Assembly: GCA_025354985.1 (NCBI GenBank)
Contig: JANXLU010000081.1
Location: forward strand, 1 to 64,000
Direction: 5' to 3'
Length of the DNA stretch: 64,000 bases
Source: Chloroflexota bacterium
GTDB taxonomy: Bacteria > Chloroflexota > Anaerolineae > J036 > Brachytrichaceae
Below the pieces are notes generated by a model, which searched no databases, had not been told where the DNA came from, and was given only the letters and a program-made list of their open reading frames with translations. Positions 32,446 through 43,435 of the stretch are shown here, in pieces. Both the position numbers and the translations under genes were made by a program. Each line of letters begins with the position of its first letter. Position 1 is the first letter of the stretch.

Positions 32446-33861
32446 TTACAACCGATACGCGTCTTTCGCGAGCCCGTAACATAGCGCCTGGCAAAGCTCG
32501 TGTGCATCATCGCGGTCGATAATCCCGCGTGAGACCTGACCAGCCAACCAATTTGCGCTGGCGCGCCGCCAAACGTCATGGCGTGCCGCTATCGAGCAGA
32601 ATGCCCGGGTGTCGTCGTTAAAACCGGCGGTGTTATAGACACCCGCGGTCTCCATGACCCCGTCAAAGAACCGGGTGATGCCGTTGAAGCTGTCATGGAA
32701 CCACCACGGCGGGCCCAGACGAAGTGCCGGGTAGTGACCGGCCAGCGGCGCCAGTTCGCGCGCATAAGTGCTCTCGTCCAACGTAAACAAAATAAGGCGC
32801 ATCCGGGCATCCGAGCCAACTGCATCCAGCAAGGGCTTGAGATTTCGCGTGTACTCTGCCGCGATCGGGATGTCGGCGCCCATGTCCCGGCCAAATCGAG
32901 CATATACCGATGGATTGTGATTCCGCAGCGAGCCCGTGTGCAGCTGCATGACCAGTCCATCTTCGCAGCTCATGCGCGCCATTTGTATCAGCATGTGCCC
33001 GGTGAACATCTGCGCATCAGAAAGCGACGCCGTACCGGCAAGCGCACGCTGAAAGATCGCACCTGCCTCGGCATCGGACAGTTGAACCGTATAAGGCGAT
33101 AGTGCTGCGTGATCCGTGGCCCGGGCACCCATCTGCTTAAAAAAGGCCCGGCGTTGCTCCAGTGCAGCGATGAACGAGTGATAGTCGTGAACCGAAACGC
33201 CACTGACCCGGCCAAGCGCCTGTATGTTGTCCGACCAGCCATCTCCGTCAATATTTACCACCGCATCAGGGCGGAACGTGGGAATAATACGGCCCGTCCA
33301 AACGCTCGCATGAATGGCGGCGTGTTGCGTCAATTCATCTGTCGCGGCATCAGTCGTGGCCAGTACCTCGATATTGAAGTGCTGATACAGCGCACGCGGC
33401 TTAAACGCCGGCGTGGCAAGTTTTTCCACAATCTGATCGTAAATGCGCTGGGCCGAGTCGGCCGTGAGTTTTTCGCGTATCTCGAACAACTCAAAAAATT
33501 CATGGTTCAACCAGGCACCCGTCGGCGTGCCGCGAAACAGCCCAAATTTCTCGGCAAAAAGTTGCCAAATCATTCGGTGGTTCCGCTCAACCGACGAACC
33601 ATCCCGCGCAGACACACCCAACTCGTCGAGCCCAACGCCTTGCGACACCAACATGCGCGTGACGTAATGATCCGGAATGATAAAGAGATCGACCGGAGAA
33701 CCAAACAAGTAATCAGGTTCGGCAAACAGCCGCGGATCAACATGGCCGTGCGGGCAGATCAAAGGCAACGCCCGTACCTGTTCATACAGCGCGCGCGCAA
33801 TCGCTTTGCGCGCCGCGTCACCTTCAAAATAGCGGTCTGGTGCGAGCTGCAGAGTGCTCAT
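32446..33861 (-). CDS. uxaC: Uronate (glucuronate) isomerase
   Basis: This 471-residue amidohydrolase-superfamily enzyme converts D-glucuronate to D-fructuronate and D-galacturonate to D-tagaturonate in the cytoplasm. The N-terminal LICPHGHVDPRLFAEP contains the metal-binding His pair, and LHTGSLRNHNPSV and FNDDTRAFCSIAARHD are typical of UxaC. The ATG at 33861 overlaps the SDR stop by 4 bases (ATGA). It is the last gene of the uronate operon; the isomerised product is the substrate of the preceding SDR gene product. Confidence 0.94.
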   Translation of the reverse strand: MSTLQLAPDRYFEGDAARKAIARALYEQVRALPLICPHGHVDPRLFAEPDYLFGSPVDLFIIPDHYVTRMLVSQGVGLDELGVSARDGSSVERNHRMIWQLFAEKFGLFRGTPTGAWLNHEFFELFEIREKLTADSAQRIYDQIVEKLATPAFKPRALYQHFNIEVLATTDAATDELTQHAAIHASVWTGRIIPTFRPDAVVNIDGDGWSDNIQALGRVSGVSVHDYHSFIAALEQRRAFFKQMGARATDHAALSPYTVQLSDAEAGAIFQRALAGTASLSDAQMFTGHMLIQMARMSCEDGLVMQLHTGSLRNHNPSVYARFGRDMGADIPIAAEYTRNLKPLLDAVGSDARMRLILFTLDESTYARELAPLAGHYPALRLGPPWWFHDSFNGITRFFDGVMETAGVYNTAGFNDDTRAFCSIAARHDVWRRASANWLAGQVSRGIIDRDDAHELCQALCYGLAKDAYRL

Positions 33862-34679
33862 ACTCCGCTCCAGGCAGAGAATCCACCATCCACCGGTACT
33901 ACAATCCCGGTGACAAAGGCGCTGGCTGGTGAGGCCAGCCAAAGCAGTGTGCCAATCAGATCTTCGGCCTCGCCAAGCCGGGCCATTGGTGTGTGCGCCA
34001 CAATGGTCTTGGCACGCGCGGTAAATGCACCAGTTTCCTTGTCGGTCAGCAAGAATCGGTTTTGCTCGGTTAAAAAGAATCCCGGGGCGATCGCGTTAAC
34101 CCGAATCCCCGGTCCATATTCCTGGGCCATGTAGACGGCTAGCCAGCGCGTCAGGTTATCCAGCGCCGCCTTTGCCGCGCTATAGGCGCTCACCCGCGTG
34201 ATCGCGCGCGCCGCAGCCATGCTGCCGATATTGATGATGTTGCCCTGTTTGCGCTCGGCCATGGTCCGGCCAAACGCCTGCGAGGCATAAATTGCGCCCA
34301 TTAAATTTAGGTTGAAGACTTTGTTGAGTGATGGTGCATCCAGTTGAAAGAAACTTTGGGTGGCCGTGGTGGTTGCGCCAGGCGCATTGCCTCCTGCACC
34401 GTTGATCAAGATGTCAACCGGCCCCCAGGCTTTTTCGCACTGTTCAGCCGCGTGCCACATGGCGGCCGGGTCTGTCACGTCTGCTGCCAAGCTCATGGCG
34501 GTTCCACCCGCGGCAGTGATGCCTGCCGCCGCTGCCGCGCCGGTTTGCTCACGTGAACTGATGATCACCACCCGCGCACCAGCCCGCGCCAGCCCGCCCG
34601 CCATTGCACTGCCCAAACCGCCGCTACCGCCCGTCACCACCGCAATTTTTCCGTCGAGGTTGAATAAGTTGTTCATCAC
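33858..34679 (-). CDS. SDR oxidoreductase, fructuronate reductase type
   Basis: This 273-residue short-chain dehydrogenase has the Rossmann motif VVTGGSGGLGSAMAGGLA, the NAG segment ILINGAGGNAPGATT, the catalytic Ser/Tyr/Lys in INIGSMAAARAITRVSAYS and SAAKAALDN, and the C-terminal FVTGIVVPVDGGFSAWSGV. The pattern IAPGFFLTEQNRFLL is characteristic of SDRs reducing D-fructuronate to D-mannonate, a non-homologous replacement of UxuB. The start is the ATG at 34679 (or 34676). It is translationally coupled to uxaC and lies 15 bases downstream of the beta-glucuronidase. Confidence 0.88.
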   Translation of the reverse strand: MMNNLFNLDGKIAVVTGGSGGLGSAMAGGLARAGARVVIISSREQTGAAAAAGITAAGGTAMSLAADVTDPAAMWHAAEQCEKAWGPVDILINGAGGNAPGATTTATQSFFQLDAPSLNKVFNLNLMGAIYASQAFGRTMAERKQGNIINIGSMAAARAITRVSAYSAAKAALDNLTRWLAVYMAQEYGPGIRVNAIAPGFFLTEQNRFLLTDKETGAFTARAKTIVAHTPMARLGEAEDLIGTLLWLASPASAFVTGIVVPVDGGFSAWSGV

Positions 34680-34694
34680 TGCCTTTAATAATAC

Positions 34695-36476
34695 TTACTT
34701 GTTCCAACGGCTGCGCAGAAAGTGGGCCGACATTTTGGGCTTGCGATCCCGGGTAAACACGCCCTTAAAATTCATGGATGCCGTGCGCAAAATTCCCTGC
34801 GAGGTCTTAAAGTCGGCAAAATTCCAGATGTGCAACCCCGCCAAATATGGATGTGAATCAGCGTAATCCAGATGATAGCGGAGCACCTCCACCTGATATT
34901 CCTCCGACCACATCTCCGCGGGTTGGGCATGGTGACCGGGAAGCGTATCCGCGCCAAACTCACTTATCACGATTGGCTTGCCGTGCAAGGCATGTAAGGT
35001 CTCTAGCTCCTGCGCCAACGCTGTTTTGGCCGCCTCCAGCCGTCCCCCTAGGTAATACCAGCCATAGTAGCGGTTGATGCTGATAAAGTCCACTTCGGTC
35101 AGCCAATCCGGGGAAGCGCCTTGTAGATGCGCAAAACTGACGGCTCGGGTTGAGTCCAGTTTGCGCGCCAGGGAAATCAAACTATTGAGAAAATCCCGTC
35201 CCAGACTACTGATCGGGCTGCCCGGTTTCTCCGGGTTGAAAAAACTGCCTGCAACGGGTTCGTTGGCGATGCTCCAGGCGATCACGCTGGGGTGATTTTT
35301 GTCTCGCGCGATCAGCGCCGCGGTCGCGGCCAGGCACAATTCATGATGGCGATTGACCAAGTCCGCAGCCAGGTGAAACCCAAGACCGACCGCCGGTGTC
35401 TCATCCACAATCAGGATTCCCTGCCGGTCAGCCTGTTGCATGGCCTCCTCGGAATACGGATAGTGGGAGGTGCGGTAGGAATTGGCACCAATCCACCGCA
35501 ACAGATCAGCGTCCTTCATAAGCACGGGAAGATTCAGCCCGCGCCCGCTTCCGGCAAAGTCTTCGTGTTTGCCAAAACCCTTGAGCTGAATCTCCGCGCC
35601 ATTGAGCATCATGCGGTCGCCCTTGACGCCAAATGTGCGAATACCGATATCAAGATCATAGCGATCAGTGTCACCAAGCATCACTATAAGGTTGTATAGC
35701 TTTGGATGCCCGGGTCCCCACAGCGCGGCGTGAGCAATGGTCAACGAGCCTTGCGCCACACCATTGACAAACGCCAATACTGCGCGCTGACCACCGATAA
35801 GTAACGTCCCATTTCCGTCGTAATCCAATGTGGCGTTTACCCGCACCTGCACGTGACCTGTGACATCCTCGCCGGATTGATCAAACGATGTGATCACCGT
35901 CACATCTTCTATATGCACGGGCGGTAGACCGATCAACCAAACCTGACGCTGAATGCCCGCATAGGGAAAGAAGTCATAGCTCGTTAGCGGGAATCCCGCC
36001 AAAAATCCGCCATCGCCACCACCCATCCCGACGCCGCCCGGGGGCAGTCGATCCGGCTTAAGACTGTTGTCAACCCGTATGGCGATGTGATTTGCCGAGC
36101 CCCACGAGACGTGGCCGGTGATATCGAAACCAAACGCTAGGTGCCCGCCCTCGTGTGTGCCAACCTCAACACCGTTTACAAACACGCGGGCAAAATAACT
36201 GGCCGAGCCCACTCGAATCGCAATCCGTTGCCCGCGCCAACCCGCCGGCACCCAAGTGTCCAACGCTTACCATGCGGCGTCGGTATAGTCACGGAGGTCC
36301 GCGTGCTGCTCGTTCCAGCTCCCGGGTAGCGCAATATGACGGGGTTGCGGCAAAGCCGAGGCCCAACCGCTATTAATACCCGTATCGGTTGGGTCCGGTT
36401 GAAATTGCCAGATACCGGAGAGATCCAACGCATTACGACAGTTGTTTTGTTGAGGATAGAGATTCAGCGCGTTCAT
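34695..36476 (-). pseudogene. uidA: Beta-glucuronidase (GH2) interrupted by an in-frame stop
   Basis: The 593-codon frame matches GH2 beta-glucuronidase along its whole length. The N-terminal sugar-binding domain starts with NALDLSGIWQFQPDP; the acid/base Glu is near codon 405 (IAWSIANEP) and the nucleophile Glu near codon 505 (VISEFGADT). After 69 codons (..YTDAAW) codon 70 is TAA at 36269-36267, where the family has a conserved Tyr (AWY). The same frame continues unchanged (ALDTWVPAGWRGQ). One base change would create this stop. Translation could restart at TTG 36263, but part of the first domain would be missing. Otherwise it is full length, so the event is recent, an assembly error, or programmed readthrough. 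Confidence 0.85.
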
Positions 36477-36559
36477 GATTTTTGAAAATGCCTGCTACGC
36501 CAGCCGCGGTGTGATGCCGCGTGTTGCCAAACGCTGTGAATGACCAGGGTGTGGTCGCG

Positions 36560-37444
36560 CTATTCCTTTACGCCGCCAACCAGCACACCCTTTACAAAGA
36601 AGCGCTGCAGGAACGGATAGATCAGAAGAATAGGAATCGTGGCAACCATGATGATGGCATATTTGATCGTCGCGGCCACGCTTTCAACATCCCCAGCGGA
36701 TGTTCCCGCCGTCATGTTTTGCGTGTCGTTGGAGATTAATATCTGGCGCAGAATAAGTTGTAGTGGATACAGATCGACATTCCGAAAGTAAATCAATGCC
36801 GAGAAGAAGGCATTCCAATGACCAACTGCATAAAACAGGGTCACCACCGCAAGCGCGGGTAGTGACAGCGGAATGATCACGTTAAACAGGATTGACCAGT
36901 CATTTGCTCCATCCATGCGCGCGGCTTCTTCCAAAGCAGGTGGAACGCCTTCAAAGGCTGTTCGCAAAATCAACAGATTGAACGTGTTGATGGCGCCTGG
37001 CAGAATGACCGCCAGCGGGTTGTCGATCATGTTCAGGGTCTTGGCCACCAACAGGAACTGCGGGATAAGACCCCCGCTAAAAAACAGCGTAAACACGATC
37101 AGCAACGATAGTGGTCGGCGCCACAGCACATTTTGCCGCGAGAGCGCATATGCCCCGAGCGTGGTCATAAACATGTTGATCGCCGTTCCCAGGATGACGT
37201 AAAAAAGCGTATTGCGATACCCGGTCAGGATAAACGGGTTGCGAAATACGGTTTCGTAGGCGGTTATCGTGAAACCAAGCGGCGCAAACAACAATCCGCG
37301 CCAGGATTGAATCCGCCCCGGGTCGCTAAACGAGGCAAAAGCCACGTATAGGATCGGATAGAGCGTGATGATGATGACACCGACCAACAACGCATAGTTG
37401 ACGACATCAAAAATAACATCGGTTCTGGTTCTTCGGATATTCAT
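36560..37444 (-). CDS. ABC importer permease (LplC/YtcP-like)
   Basis: This 294-residue CUT1-family inner-membrane permease has six membrane helices and the EAA loop EEAARMDGANDWSILFNVIIPLSLP near residue 190. It resembles the LplC/YtcP group that imports complex oligosaccharides such as rhamnogalacturonan fragments. It pairs with the LplB-type permease upstream and the lipoprotein at 38460. No ATPase gene is next to them; this class usually shares a housekeeping MsmX-type ATPase encoded elsewhere. The context suggests glucuronide or oligouronide uptake. The 83 bp to the beta-glucuronidase show no hairpin. Confidence 0.9.
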   Translation of the reverse strand: MNIRRTRTDVIFDVVNYALLVGVIIITLYPILYVAFASFSDPGRIQSWRGLLFAPLGFTITAYETVFRNPFILTGYRNTLFYVILGTAINMFMTTLGAYALSRQNVLWRRPLSLLIVFTLFFSGGLIPQFLLVAKTLNMIDNPLAVILPGAINTFNLLILRTAFEGVPPALEEAARMDGANDWSILFNVIIPLSLPALAVVTLFYAVGHWNAFFSALIYFRNVDLYPLQLILRQILISNDTQNMTAGTSAGDVESVAATIKYAIIMVATIPILLIYPFLQRFFVKGVLVGGVKE

Positions 37445-37470: not shown

Positions 37471-38400
37471 TTAGAACAAACTTGTGCCGCCCCGCCGACG
37501 GCTTAGGGCATTTGCGGTAAACAGAAATGCCAGGTTGATCAGTGAGTTAAATATGCCAACCGCTGCCGACAGACTGTAATCTCCATTTAGCACACCGTTG
37601 CGAAAGACGTATGAAGAAATAATGTCAGCTGTTTGATACACCAGCGGGTTGTAAAGCAGGATTGTCTTTTCAGAACCAATGCTGAGAATATTGCCAATAC
37701 GCAAGATAAACAGCGTCACAATCGTCGGTGCGATGCCCGGCAACGTGATGTTAAAAATCTGGCGAAATCGTCCCGCGCCATCCACTTTGGCCGCGTCATA
37801 CAGCTGTGGATCGATACTTGAAATCGACGCCAGGTAGATGATCGAACCATAGCCAAAGGTCTGCCAGATTCCGGATCCAACATAAAGCGCCCAGTAATAG
37901 TTTGGCTCTGAAAGAAACCCGATGCGGGCGTCACCCGTGCGGCCCAAAACATTGTTCACCAGACCATCACGCGCAAAAAAGTCAATCAACAACCCAACGA
38001 TCACAACTACTGAAATAAAGAACGGCATATACGAAGTGGTCTGCACCAGGCGCTTAAATCGGATACTGGTAACCTCGTTGAGCATGATGGCGAGCAATAT
38101 CGGCGCGGGAAAGCCAAATATCACATCCAGCACGCTGATGGCCAGCGTATTCCGCAGCAGGCGCCAGAAATAGATGCCGTTAAAGAACTCCTTGAAGTTA
38201 TCCCAACCAACCCAGGTGCTGCCCTCAATGCCACGCGCTGGCACAAAGTCACGAAAGGCGATTTGCGCGCCGTACATCGGGCCATAGTGAAACAGCGCGT
38301 AATACAACACGACCGGAATGAGCATCAGATAGATGCCCTTGTTGCGCTGAAAGTCCTTCCTGATTCGCGTGCCCAGGGATGGCGGCGGAGTGCGTGTCAT
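37471..38400 (-). CDS. ABC importer permease (LplB/YteP-like)
   Basis: This 309-residue protein has an N-terminal cytoplasmic stretch, six helices and an EAA loop containing YDAAKVDGAGRFRQIFNITLP. It belongs to the LplB/YteP group of CUT1 permeases. The opening FQRNKGIYLMLIPVVLYY is typical of that group. It is encoded 26 bases upstream of the second permease and is separated from the substrate-binding lipoprotein gene by a 12-bp stem hairpin, a common way to lower permease expression relative to the binding protein. Confidence 0.9.
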   Translation of the reverse strand: MTRTPPPSLGTRIRKDFQRNKGIYLMLIPVVLYYALFHYGPMYGAQIAFRDFVPARGIEGSTWVGWDNFKEFFNGIYFWRLLRNTLAISVLDVIFGFPAPILLAIMLNEVTSIRFKRLVQTTSYMPFFISVVVIVGLLIDFFARDGLVNNVLGRTGDARIGFLSEPNYYWALYVGSGIWQTFGYGSIIYLASISSIDPQLYDAAKVDGAGRFRQIFNITLPGIAPTIVTLFILRIGNILSIGSEKTILLYNPLVYQTADIISSYVFRNGVLNGDYSLSAAVGIFNSLINLAFLFTANALSRRRGGTSLF

Positions 38401-38459: not shown

Positions 38460-40124
38460 CTAGCGCTTGGTGTAGCGCTCAAGTGCGGCCTGTTGCACCT
38501 TGAGCGCATCATCCACGCCAAGCGTCTTAAGTTCGTCCTGAAATTTGTCCCAGGTTGTCATGGGCTCGGCGCCGGTAAATACCTTGGCAAAAACTTCATC
38601 AAAGCGTGTATTGATCGCGGTCATCACGCGCGAAAAATTACGGCTCTCCTCAACGGTTGGCGCCACGTTTGGCAACAAGCGCTCGTTGGACGGTTCCTTC
38701 CAAATGGCGTAAGCGGCTTTTTGGTTTGGATACTGAAAGTATTGCTCAAGATAGCGAATGTCCTGGACAAACGGACCGCTAAAGTTGCTTCGGGCGTGCT
38801 GCGCCCAGCTTTGCGCCAGCGACAGCTTGGGGCTGTTGATGATTTCATCCTTCATCTTGGGATAACCATCCGCAGTGAGGTCATATGTCACGCCTTTCAC
38901 GCCAAAGTTAAACAACAACCCGCCTTCCGTCGAGAAGGCATAGTCCAGCCACTTGACCGCTGCTTCCACGTCCTTGCAGGCCGAGGTAATGCACACACCT
39001 GGACCAGGAAGTTCGTTATCCTTCTGACCCAGAATGGGCTTGTCGCCCGCCTTCAAGGTGGGATATTGCACGCCCATTAATTCAAATTCCTTGGGCTCCT
39101 TGCCACGCATGAGCGCGGTAAAGTTCCCAATACCGCTGCCAACAAACGTGGTCCCGCTGGCGATTTTGTTGCCGGTCATTTTGGCCGCAAAAGCCGCAGA
39201 ATCCATCGCGATCAAGTCCGGGTCGATGTACCCTTCTTTGTACCAACTGGCCATCTGGGCCAAAAATTCCTTAAATTCCGGTGTGGCCGGGCCATAGCGC
39301 ACCTTTCCGCCTTCTTGCGAGAAGCCATTCACCACTCCGTAGCTTCCCACAAAGCATGGATACCCGTTGCCATTAAAACCGCCCTTCCAGCTTCCACCGC
39401 CCCATGGGTTAAAAGGGTATTCGTCGGCAACGCCGTTCTTGTTGAAATCCTTGCCCTTTAGACCCTTGAACATCTCAGTCCATTCGCTGATCGTCGTCGG
39501 CGCCTTCAAGCCATAGGTCTGCAAAATATCCTTTCGGACATATGGTCCGTAAAACGATTGCAACCCCGGATTGCCTCGAATAAACGGGAACATAAACATG
39601 TCACCGTCATCGGTGGTGGCTTGAATGCGATACTTGGGGTTGCTGTCCAATACCTTCTTCAGATTTGGCGCCCACTTATTGATGGCGTCGTTAAGTTTGA
39701 TGATGACACCATCTTTCAAGTATTTGGCCGGGCCGCCTGGAAGCGAAAACCAGTTGCCCCAATCCAGCATGTCGGGATACTTTCCGCTGGCCACGAGCAG
39801 GTTGAACTGTTCAATGGCTTGTGGATTATCCGGCACGTGTTGAAAATCAATGTGCACGCCGGACAGTTTCTCAAGCTCCATGTAGCAGGTCATTTCGCCA
39901 TAACTTTTCAGCGTCGCTGCAACGTTGCTGGTCAGCGGCGTCCAGTAGGTAAACGTCGTGCCTTTGTTGATCACTGGTACGCCACCCGCAGTGGCGGCGG
40001 GCGCTCCAGCCGGCGCTGACGTCGGCGCAGGTGGAGGCGCCGATGGGGCACAGGCCGCGAGCGCGGCAGCCCCGGCCGTCATGCCACCAATCTTGATCAA
40101 TTTTCTGCGATTAATTTTGTTCAT
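38460..40124 (-). CDS. Sugar ABC transporter substrate-binding lipoprotein (LplA/YtcQ-like)
   Basis: This 554-residue extracellular protein has a twin-arginine-like start (INRRKLIKIGG) and a lipobox LAAC with the lipid-modified Cys at residue 25, followed by a Pro/Ala linker. The long binding domain resembles the LplA/YtcQ family for large oligosaccharides. It would present a uronic-acid-containing sugar to the permease pair downstream. The ribosome site GGAGAA lies about 10 bases before the ATG. The 131-bp gap 40125-40255 upstream contains T-rich direct repeats (CTTGGTTTTT twice) but no clear promoter. Confidence 0.92.
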   Translation of the reverse strand: MNKINRRKLIKIGGMTAGAAALAACAPSAPPPAPTSAPAGAPAATAGGVPVINKGTTFTYWTPLTSNVAATLKSYGEMTCYMELEKLSGVHIDFQHVPDNPQAIEQFNLLVASGKYPDMLDWGNWFSLPGGPAKYLKDGVIIKLNDAINKWAPNLKKVLDSNPKYRIQATTDDGDMFMFPFIRGNPGLQSFYGPYVRKDILQTYGLKAPTTISEWTEMFKGLKGKDFNKNGVADEYPFNPWGGGSWKGGFNGNGYPCFVGSYGVVNGFSQEGGKVRYGPATPEFKEFLAQMASWYKEGYIDPDLIAMDSAAFAAKMTGNKIASGTTFVGSGIGNFTALMRGKEPKEFELMGVQYPTLKAGDKPILGQKDNELPGPGVCITSACKDVEAAVKWLDYAFSTEGGLLFNFGVKGVTYDLTADGYPKMKDEIINSPKLSLAQSWAQHARSNFSGPFVQDIRYLEQYFQYPNQKAAYAIWKEPSNERLLPNVAPTVEESRNFSRVMTAINTRFDEVFAKVFTGAEPMTTWDKFQDELKTLGVDDALKVQQAALERYTKR

Positions 40125-40255: not shown

Positions 40256-41347
40256 TCAAACGACCTCTTCGCTCCGGCCACTGTCCGCTGCGCGATACAT
40301 GGCATCAAACATGGATTGAATGATCAGACCACGCTCAAGCGAGGTTGTTGGCGCGCGACCATCCCGAATGGCCTCGGCAAAATCCTTGATCGGCATGCCA
40401 TGCTGCTGGGACCAATCCTCGTCTCCCTCCCAGAGCAACTCGGTCACCGTGCCCTTTGACGTGGGATGGTCAAGCCACAGTTGCTTGCCCACCTTTTCCT
40501 TCATCCACAACCTCAGCGTGCCCCGGTCACCGATGATTTGCCAGGCCTCATCCGTGGCGCTGGTCGTAAACTCGCCCCGTTCGTAGGTAAATACCGCCGG
40601 TTTGCCGTTCATGGTATCAAGGCAGTCCACGAATGCCACGATGTGTGTTTCGGCATCGCTAGCCGGGTGCACAAAGGTCGGATATGCCGCAATATTGCCA
40701 AATGTTCGCGCCATCACCCGCTTGGGCTGCAAGCGCCAGCCCAAAACGCCGAACAAATAATCGGTGTCATAGTGACCCCAATTCATCAGAATGCCACCGC
40801 CATTCAGGGCCTTGTTCAATCGCCAAATCGGGGGCGGATTAAACGGTGGAACAGGTGGCGCAGCCAAAACCGCGCGCACGCGCACAACCCGCAGGTCACC
40901 CAGCATACCGGTGGCAACGAAATCCCTGACCACTCGGGCGGACGGCAGCCCATGATAGCGACAGGAGCAACTGGCGCCGATGCGACCCGGAATTGGCGAG
41001 GTGTCCCGGGCGAGAATCAGCCGGCGCACTTCCATGGCATTCATGGCAACCGGCTTCTCAGTCAGCACGTGCTTGCCGGCGGCAAATGCGCGCACCCCCA
41101 AATCAGCGCGCAAATTGGCGGGCAGCGCGAGTACCACGCCATCCAACTCCGGATTTGCAAACAAGTCGTCGGTATTGGTATAAGCATGTGTAATGCCATA
41201 CTGCGCCGCAGTGCTCTGAACCAGCTCCGGACGGACGTCACACACACCGACAATGCTCACGTGTGGCATGCCCGCTACAACCTTGAGGTGCATCTGTCCG
41301 ATCACACCCAGACCAACCAGCCCGAGTTTTATCTTTGTCACATCCAT
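40256..41347 (-). CDS. Gfo/Idh/MocA-family oxidoreductase
   Basis: This 363-residue NAD(P)-dependent oxidoreductase has the Rossmann motif LGLVGLGVIGQMH at residues 8-20 and the family signature HVLTEKPVAMNAMEVRRLI near 93-110. The C-terminal half is the typical beta-sheet substrate domain. Members oxidise or epimerise sugars and inositols. As the first gene of the uronate operon, it may process an imported glycoside or uronate derivative. A strong TTGACA and an inverted repeat lie just upstream (41348-41388). Confidence 0.88.
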   Translation of the reverse strand: MDVTKIKLGLVGLGVIGQMHLKVVAGMPHVSIVGVCDVRPELVQSTAAQYGITHAYTNTDDLFANPELDGVVLALPANLRADLGVRAFAAGKHVLTEKPVAMNAMEVRRLILARDTSPIPGRIGASCSCRYHGLPSARVVRDFVATGMLGDLRVVRVRAVLAAPPVPPFNPPPIWRLNKALNGGGILMNWGHYDTDYLFGVLGWRLQPKRVMARTFGNIAAYPTFVHPASDAETHIVAFVDCLDTMNGKPAVFTYERGEFTTSATDEAWQIIGDRGTLRLWMKEKVGKQLWLDHPTSKGTVTELLWEGDEDWSQQHGMPIKDFAEAIRDGRAPTTSLERGLIIQSMFDAMYRAADSGRSEEVV

Positions 41348-41429: not shown

Positions 41430-42138
41430 ATGAGGGCTTCGCATGCAACTGCTCCGCCACGCAAAGCGATCAGCTAGGGTGCGGTGGCGCGGCAGGCAAA
41501 TGTGTCCATCGCCACGGTATTTCGCGTGCTAAACGGCCTGCCAGGGATTGCGGATGAAGTTCGGGCCCGGGTATCAGTGAACTCATTGCCGACTGCATAC
41601 TGGTGGACAACGAGTATACGCCCCGCACGATCGTCCGGCGGTTGGTTGAATTGGGTCACCAATCGTTTGTTCGATTTGATCTCGCGTATCGCGCAACCCT
41701 GCGTAGACGTGCGAATCCCCATGCCTCTGCGCTCATGGCCGCCGGCATTTCTGAAAGTCGGATCTCCGTATTGGAAATCGGTCAGCCAAACGAGAATGAA
41801 GGATTTGAAGCGTTGAACCCCATTTTGAAAAAGCGGCCCGTGCGGTTTACTGCCTGCGTTTGCCCGACTGATGCCGTGGCGTTTGGCTGCATGCGCGCGC
41901 TGACCGAGCATGGCTACCTTATCCTGAGAAGGTGTCCATCGTTGGCTATAACGACGAGCCGCTTGCAACGCTTATGTCTCCGCCGCTGTCCACCGTGCGC
42001 GTCGACGGTGACAACATGGGCCGGGTGGCCGTGCGCCGCCTCATGGAACGGGTGGCGGTGCCCAACCTTGCGCCAATCCAAATAACGCTGGCATGCCCGT
42101 TTATTGAGCGAGCATCGATGGCGGCGGCCCCGGCATAA
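41430..42138 (+). pseudogene. Decayed LacI-family transcriptional regulator
   Basis: The remnant has a LacI HTH (VARQANVSIATVFRVLNG) starting from an ATG at 41430, but a TAG interrupts it at 41475-41477, just before the helix-turn-helix. The reading frame then changes near 41567-41603: the linker and the first half of the ligand domain (roughly 100 residues) are missing, and a second frame continues with CILVDNEYTPRTIVRRLVELGHQ. A third frame takes over near 41930 with SIVGYNDEPLATLMSPPLSTV through to the end. Three frames and a large deletion exclude function. It is divergent from the uronate operon and probably once repressed it. The canonical Ser of the recognition helix is Phe here (VFRVLNG). 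Confidence 0.88.
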
Positions 42139-42154
42139 CAGCCGGGCACTAAAT

Positions 42155-43435
42155 CTACCGGCGCTCTATTTTTGCGCCCAGGCCAAGCAGCTTCTCGTCA
42201 AATTTCTCGTAGCCGCGGTCAATCTGCTGGGCATTGCTAATACGGCTCTGCCCCTCCGCACACAGCGCAGCAATCACCAGCGCTACGCCGGCGCGAATGT
42301 CCGGGCTCTGCACCGTATCCCCGCGCAAGGTGCTGCGCCCCATCACCACCGCGCGATGCGGATCGCACAATACAATGCGCGCCCCCATGCTCATCAGGCG
42401 GTCGGTGAAATATAGACGGCTCTCAAACATCTTTTCATGGATCAACACCGAGCCCTCACATTGGGTGGCGGCGACCAGTGCCAAGCTCAACGCATCCGCC
42501 GGGAAGCCGGGCCACGGCGCATCATCGATTTTGGGGATGGCACCGCCAAAATCCGGCTCCACCCGCAACACCTGGTTGGTCGAGGCCGGCACAAAAATAT
42601 CCGTGCCGCGCGCCTCCCAGCGAATGCCAAGCTTGCCCAGCATCAACCGGGTCATGGCAAAGTGCTCCGGGCTGGCCTTCTGGATCGTCACGCCATCCCC
42701 GCATAGCGCGCTCAACACGATAAAGCTGGTCACTTCGATGTTGTCCGCGCCAACCTCAAACTCGGTCCCGCCCAGTTGGGGCACGCCGTGAATGGTCAGC
42801 GTATTGCTGCCTATTCCCTCAATATGCGCGCCCATGCGCACGAGGCACCGGCATAAATCCTGCACATGCGGCTCGCCCGCCGCGTTGCGGATAACGCTGG
42901 TGCCATGAGCCCTAACTGCGGCCATGATCGCATTTTCGGTGGCGGTGACCGAGGCCTCATCCAACATCATCTCGGCGCCAATCAATTGCGCTGTGCGCAG
43001 GTGAAAGTCGCGATCCATGGATACCTCTACACCAAGGGCTTTAAACGCTAGAAAGTGGGTGTCCAGCCGTCGCCGTCCAATGACATCCCCGCCCGGGGGT
43101 GGCAGCGTGATATCTCCGCACCGTGCCAGCATCGCGCCTGCCAGCAGGATGCTGGCACGTATCTCGCGACACAGCGCAGGGTCAAGCAGACATTGATTCA
43201 CCGTCGCCGCATGCACACGAACGGTATTTTCAGCCGGCCAGGTCACCCCCGCGCCAAGCTGTTCAAGCAGCTTCAGCAGCGTCATCACATCACGTATGCG
43301 CGGCACGTTGTGTAGCGTCACGGGCTCATCCGTAAGCAGTGCGGCGGCAATCAGTGGCAGCGCGGCATTCTTGTTACCGGAAGCGCGCACCACGCCTTTT
43401 AGGCGTGCTCCGCCCTCAATTAGAAATTCAGCCAT
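42155..43435 (-). CDS. murA: UDP-N-acetylglucosamine 1-carboxyvinyltransferase with Asp at the Cys position
   Basis: This 426-residue enzyme adds enolpyruvate from PEP to UDP-GlcNAc, the first committed step of peptidoglycan synthesis. Typical motifs are SGNKNAALPLIAAALLTDEP at the N-terminus and NAIMAAVRAHGTS. The active-site loop reads PPPGGDVIGRRRLDTHF: Asp117 replaces the Cys (C115 in E. coli) that fosfomycin attacks, while the Arg of the loop is kept. Asp enzymes are known in Mycobacterium and Chlamydia and are fosfomycin-resistant, so the same is predicted here. The length is normal. Confidence 0.95.
   Translation of the reverse strand: MAEFLIEGGARLKGVVRASGNKNAALPLIAAALLTDEPVTLHNVPRIRDVMTLLKLLEQLGAGVTWPAENTVRVHAATVNQCLLDPALCREIRASILLAGAMLARCGDITLPPPGGDVIGRRRLDTHFLAFKALGVEVSMDRDFHLRTAQLIGAEMMLDEASVTATENAIMAAVRAHGTSVIRNAAGEPHVQDLCRCLVRMGAHIEGIGSNTLTIHGVPQLGGTEFEVGADNIEVTSFIVLSALCGDGVTIQKASPEHFAMTRLMLGKLGIRWEARGTDIFVPASTNQVLRVEPDFGGAIPKIDDAPWPGFPADALSLALVAATQCEGSVLIHEKMFESRLYFTDRLMSMGARIVLCDPHRAVVMGRSTLRGDTVQSPDIRAGVALVIAALCAEGQSRISNAQQIDRGYEKFDEKLLGLGAKIERR

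Follow-up and report, generated by a model that had tools for sequence, protein, structure and literature searches.

A beta-glucuronidase gene with a single internal stop codon, probably a recent nonsense pseudogene, in a Chloroflexota bacterium

In the window, which is the whole 64,000-nucleotide stretch of DNA analysed here, a GH2 beta-glucuronidase (GUS) gene is interrupted by one in-frame TAA. We take it, with a probability of about two in three, to be a nonsense pseudogene of recent origin, part of a glucuronide-use cluster that is itself partly decaying. A single nonsense substitution would recently have struck a conserved Tyr codon, GUS translation would stop at residue 69 and yield no working enzyme. 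The loss of function had begun before the GUS stop, with a divergent LacI-type regulator whose gene is an older pseudogene with several lesions. We infer that the organism truly carries this TAA and that GUS activity has been lost.

The GUS gene and its internal stop

34695-36476, minus strand: GH2 beta-glucuronidase gene interrupted by one stop (from frame, domains and alignment)
36267-36269, minus strand: in-frame TAA at codon 70, where 48 of 48 aligned relatives have Tyr
36261-36263, minus strand: in-frame TTG, a possible but weak restart codon without a Shine-Dalgarno match

Minus-strand translation of 34695-36479 revealed one internal stop only, the TAA at 36269-36267 (protein context DYTDAAW*ALDTWVP, the asterisk being the stop). 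Codon 70 is counted from the ATG at 36476, and the frame ends with a TAA at 34695. The Tyr in the stop column of the 48 other GUS proteins is encoded by TAC in 25 and by TAT in 23, and both same-genus orthologues use TAT. This bears out the initial annotation, which had placed the TAA at a conserved Tyr (AWY). The stop sits inside a frame that relatives keep uninterrupted, as in a nonsense pseudogene.

Judged from its sequence, the frame read through the stop is a complete GH2 beta-glucuronidase. The GH2 domain order of N-terminal jelly roll, Ig-like domain and TIM barrel was present, with PF02837, PF00703 and PF02836 all above their cut-offs. The NCBIfam equivalog for beta-glucuronidase, PRK10150, gave 534 bits, just short of its 544-bit cut-off, and the best solved relatives were beta-glucuronidases or GH2 enzymes (E ~1e-119, top solved match 6ED2). 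Positions in the protein are given in the numbering of P0001, which has one extra residue before the Met, so that the stop residue is 71. In a 30-protein alignment, the catalytic Glu residues in NEP and SEFGAD (E407 and E507) were invariant, as was the NxK motif (N570 and K572). The NxK motif recognises the carboxylate of glucuronate. Together with the translation, this alignment upholds the earlier claim that frame and catalytic Glu residues are intact on either side of the stop. The genome contained no close second GUS copy; two further matches were about 30% identical and lay in proteins of more than 900 residues.

Stops were also seen in other GUS genes. A GUS gene of Membranihabitans maritimus has a single in-frame TAG at the Trp codon adjoining the window site (L051:6190-6192), with no restart codon nearby, and one of an Acetobacteraceae MAG has a single in-frame TGA at codon 120 of the match (L043:6358-6360). 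The idea that stops gather at the AWY motif was dropped, as cases were too few and no relative had a stop at the window's codon. In another genome of the class, an N-terminal GUS fragment with an in-frame TAA is followed by unrelated sequence (L129, G047:C654, 536-796); it is a truncated GUS remnant.

Relatives, constraint and the surrounding cluster

The source genome is a 4.19-Mb draft in 98 contigs and 95.8% complete. G002 and G001, two genomes of the same genus, could be equated with the Chloroflexota/Anaerolineae MAGs REEB501 and AQU-02 from the positions and identities of the matches. In each, an intact GUS orthologue with 67% identity follows immediately on the same ABC permease gene. 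Comparison with closely related genomes, a check that had been suggested initially, thus gave intact orthologues with Tyr at the stop column in both. A close GUS match was not found in a third congener (78% complete), and a search for a conspecific genome, or any genome closer than the congeners, returned none. Of 400 genomes sampled from the phylum, 19 had a GUS-like match at E 1e-60, with an internal stop in the window copy only. The window may thus have caught a patchily kept trait while it is being lost.

Identity to the G002 orthologue was 68.1% before the stop and 66.5% after it. Since both parts match the same intact orthologue, the frame is not a chance one. Synonymous sites were saturated between congeners; dating the stop by dN/dS was therefore dropped, and amino-acid relative-rate tests were used instead. 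With five outgroups, the comparison with either congener showed no acceleration of GUS (all chi-square values below 2.5). The window lineage held a share of 0.54 of the lineage-specific changes in GUS, compared with 0.68 in the intact adjacent permease, 0.46 in the oxidoreductase and 0.83 in UxaC. These tests gave no sign of relaxed constraint on GUS, which would be expected of an old pseudogene but is not required of a new one. A possible excess of changes at conserved sites was rejected as a signal: 5 of 140 sites had changed in the window protein versus 1-2 in the congeners, with a family range of 0-13. Equal conservation on both sides and the lack of acceleration imply that the stop is very recent, unreal or harmless.

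An unreal stop is the main rival to a recent nonsense mutation. The TAA would then be a consensus error or a minority base, arising from base-calling, assembly or strain mixture, and GUS would be intact in the organism. We regard this as a serious possibility, though an unlikely one. One substitution would suffice, constraint is normal on either side of the stop, and the assembly is a draft of many contigs. However, the large reading frames of the window are open, so the sequence is not generally poor, and the genes around GUS bear on the question as well.

32446-33942, minus strand: glucuronate isomerase UxaC, intact
33858-34679, minus strand: short-chain dehydrogenase, intact
36560-37444, minus strand: ABC transporter permease, intact; it lies immediately upstream of GUS, and does so in both congeners too
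37471-38400, minus strand: ABC transporter permease, intact
38460-40124, minus strand: extracellular solute-binding protein, without a Pfam match and named by its lipoprotein-like N-terminus and position
40256-41347, minus strand: GFO/IDH/MocA-type oxidoreductase, intact
41445-42159, plus strand: LacI-family regulator pseudogene, found by tblastn, divergent from the oxidoreductase gene

In the order of transcription, the cluster comprises the oxidoreductase, the probable binding protein (85% identical to its G002 counterpart), two ABC permeases, GUS, the short-chain dehydrogenase and UxaC, while UxuA-family genes sit elsewhere in the genome. It probably serves the uptake and breakdown of glucuronides. 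The share of changes in UxaC (83%) is one among three congeners, and in the congeners the gene lies on contigs other than the one with GUS; UxaC may be of separate origin.

The regulator gene is broken several times. In tblastn with the intact 362-residue LacI protein of G001, the remnant at 41445-42159 aligned in three frames with two frame changes. It has a stop at 41475-41477, lacks residues 53-163 (111 codons) at about 41573 and changes frame at about 41914-41923. The intact G001 counterpart (L126:169-1257, minus strand) sits at the equivalent position, next to the orthologous oxidoreductase gene, whereas G002 has a different regulator there, of GntR type to judge by visual inspection of its sequence. 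Thus, the regulator of the cluster changes among close relatives. The LacI protein presumably regulated the GUS cluster. Its lesions cannot be sequencing errors. Since the gene is multiply broken, the cluster has suffered a real, older inactivation, which argues against a consensus error at the GUS stop and raises the chance that this stop is real as well. Apparently, the regulator was broken first and the enzyme later. On the other hand, none of the remaining enzyme and transporter genes is broken, and the cluster cannot be called dead as a whole.

Possible routes around the stop

The initial annotation had offered three readings of the stop: a gene newly dead by a single substitution, a restart at the TTG at 36263, and read-through. 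The first is the best supported, given Tyr in every relative, the absence of rate acceleration and the decayed regulator in the cluster; a restart has little support and read-through none.

Read-through at a useful rate would yield full-length GUS and would agree with the conservation past the stop. But a tRNA search of the 98-contig draft gave 46 candidates, 45 of which could be typed (one was cut at a contig edge), and none of the 45 decodes a stop. TAA is moreover an ordinary terminator that ends 15 of 42 genes in the window and also closes the GUS gene itself, and the codon 70 column is free of stops in every other GUS gene compared. We therefore consider read-through very improbable. A change of the genetic code or a suppressor tRNA was rejected on the 45 typed tRNAs and the ordinary use of TAA.

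The TTG at 36263 lies in frame, two codons past the stop, and the three bases between them are a gap short enough for termination-reinitiation. A restart there or at a nearby GTG would give a working protein of 522 residues, alone or with the 69-residue piece. The conserved remainder after the stop would fit such a restart, and the ribosome-binding site of the native ATG is also weak. However, anti-Shine-Dalgarno pairing at the TTG reached only -1.1 kcal/mol, versus -6 to -10 kcal/mol at good sites in the window, and no relative begins at this position. An AlphaFold2 model of GUS (mean pLDDT 88.5, pTM 0.91) places the interrupted residue within strand 68-76 of the first domain. According to this model, a product started at the TTG would be without strands 16-19, 22-29 and 47-51 and half of 68-76, which belong to the jelly roll. 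It would lose 71 residues and with them about four strands of the sugar-binding domain, and a working truncated enzyme appears unlikely. Overall, we judge a productive restart improbable. A naturally split GUS, in which the 69- and 522-residue pieces formed by the TAA stop and TTG restart assemble as in LacZ alpha-complementation, seems scarcely credible. The TTG nevertheless calls for caution in annotation, since gene-calling software would start a 522-residue enzyme there and thereby mask the lesion.

Comparison with known systems

A recent nonsense pseudogene has a counterpart in the uidA gene of typical E. coli O157:H7, which a frameshift has inactivated (PMC6256406). In both cases, one small lesion affects a GH2 beta-glucuronidase gene that is intact in relatives (PMC6256406). 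In contrast to the nonsense codon found here, the lesion in O157:H7 is a frameshift; O157:H7 has a known negative phenotype, which for the window gene is an inference, and phylum and gene cluster differ. Most likely, the loss of GUS in the window is of an ordinary kind for bacterial genomes and needs no new mechanism. The window gene shares with bacterial GH2 beta-glucuronidases such as E. coli UidA (PDB 3K46) and 6ED2 the three domains, the Glu residues of NEP and SEFGAD and the NxK motif; unlike these two, it alone has a premature stop at codon 70.
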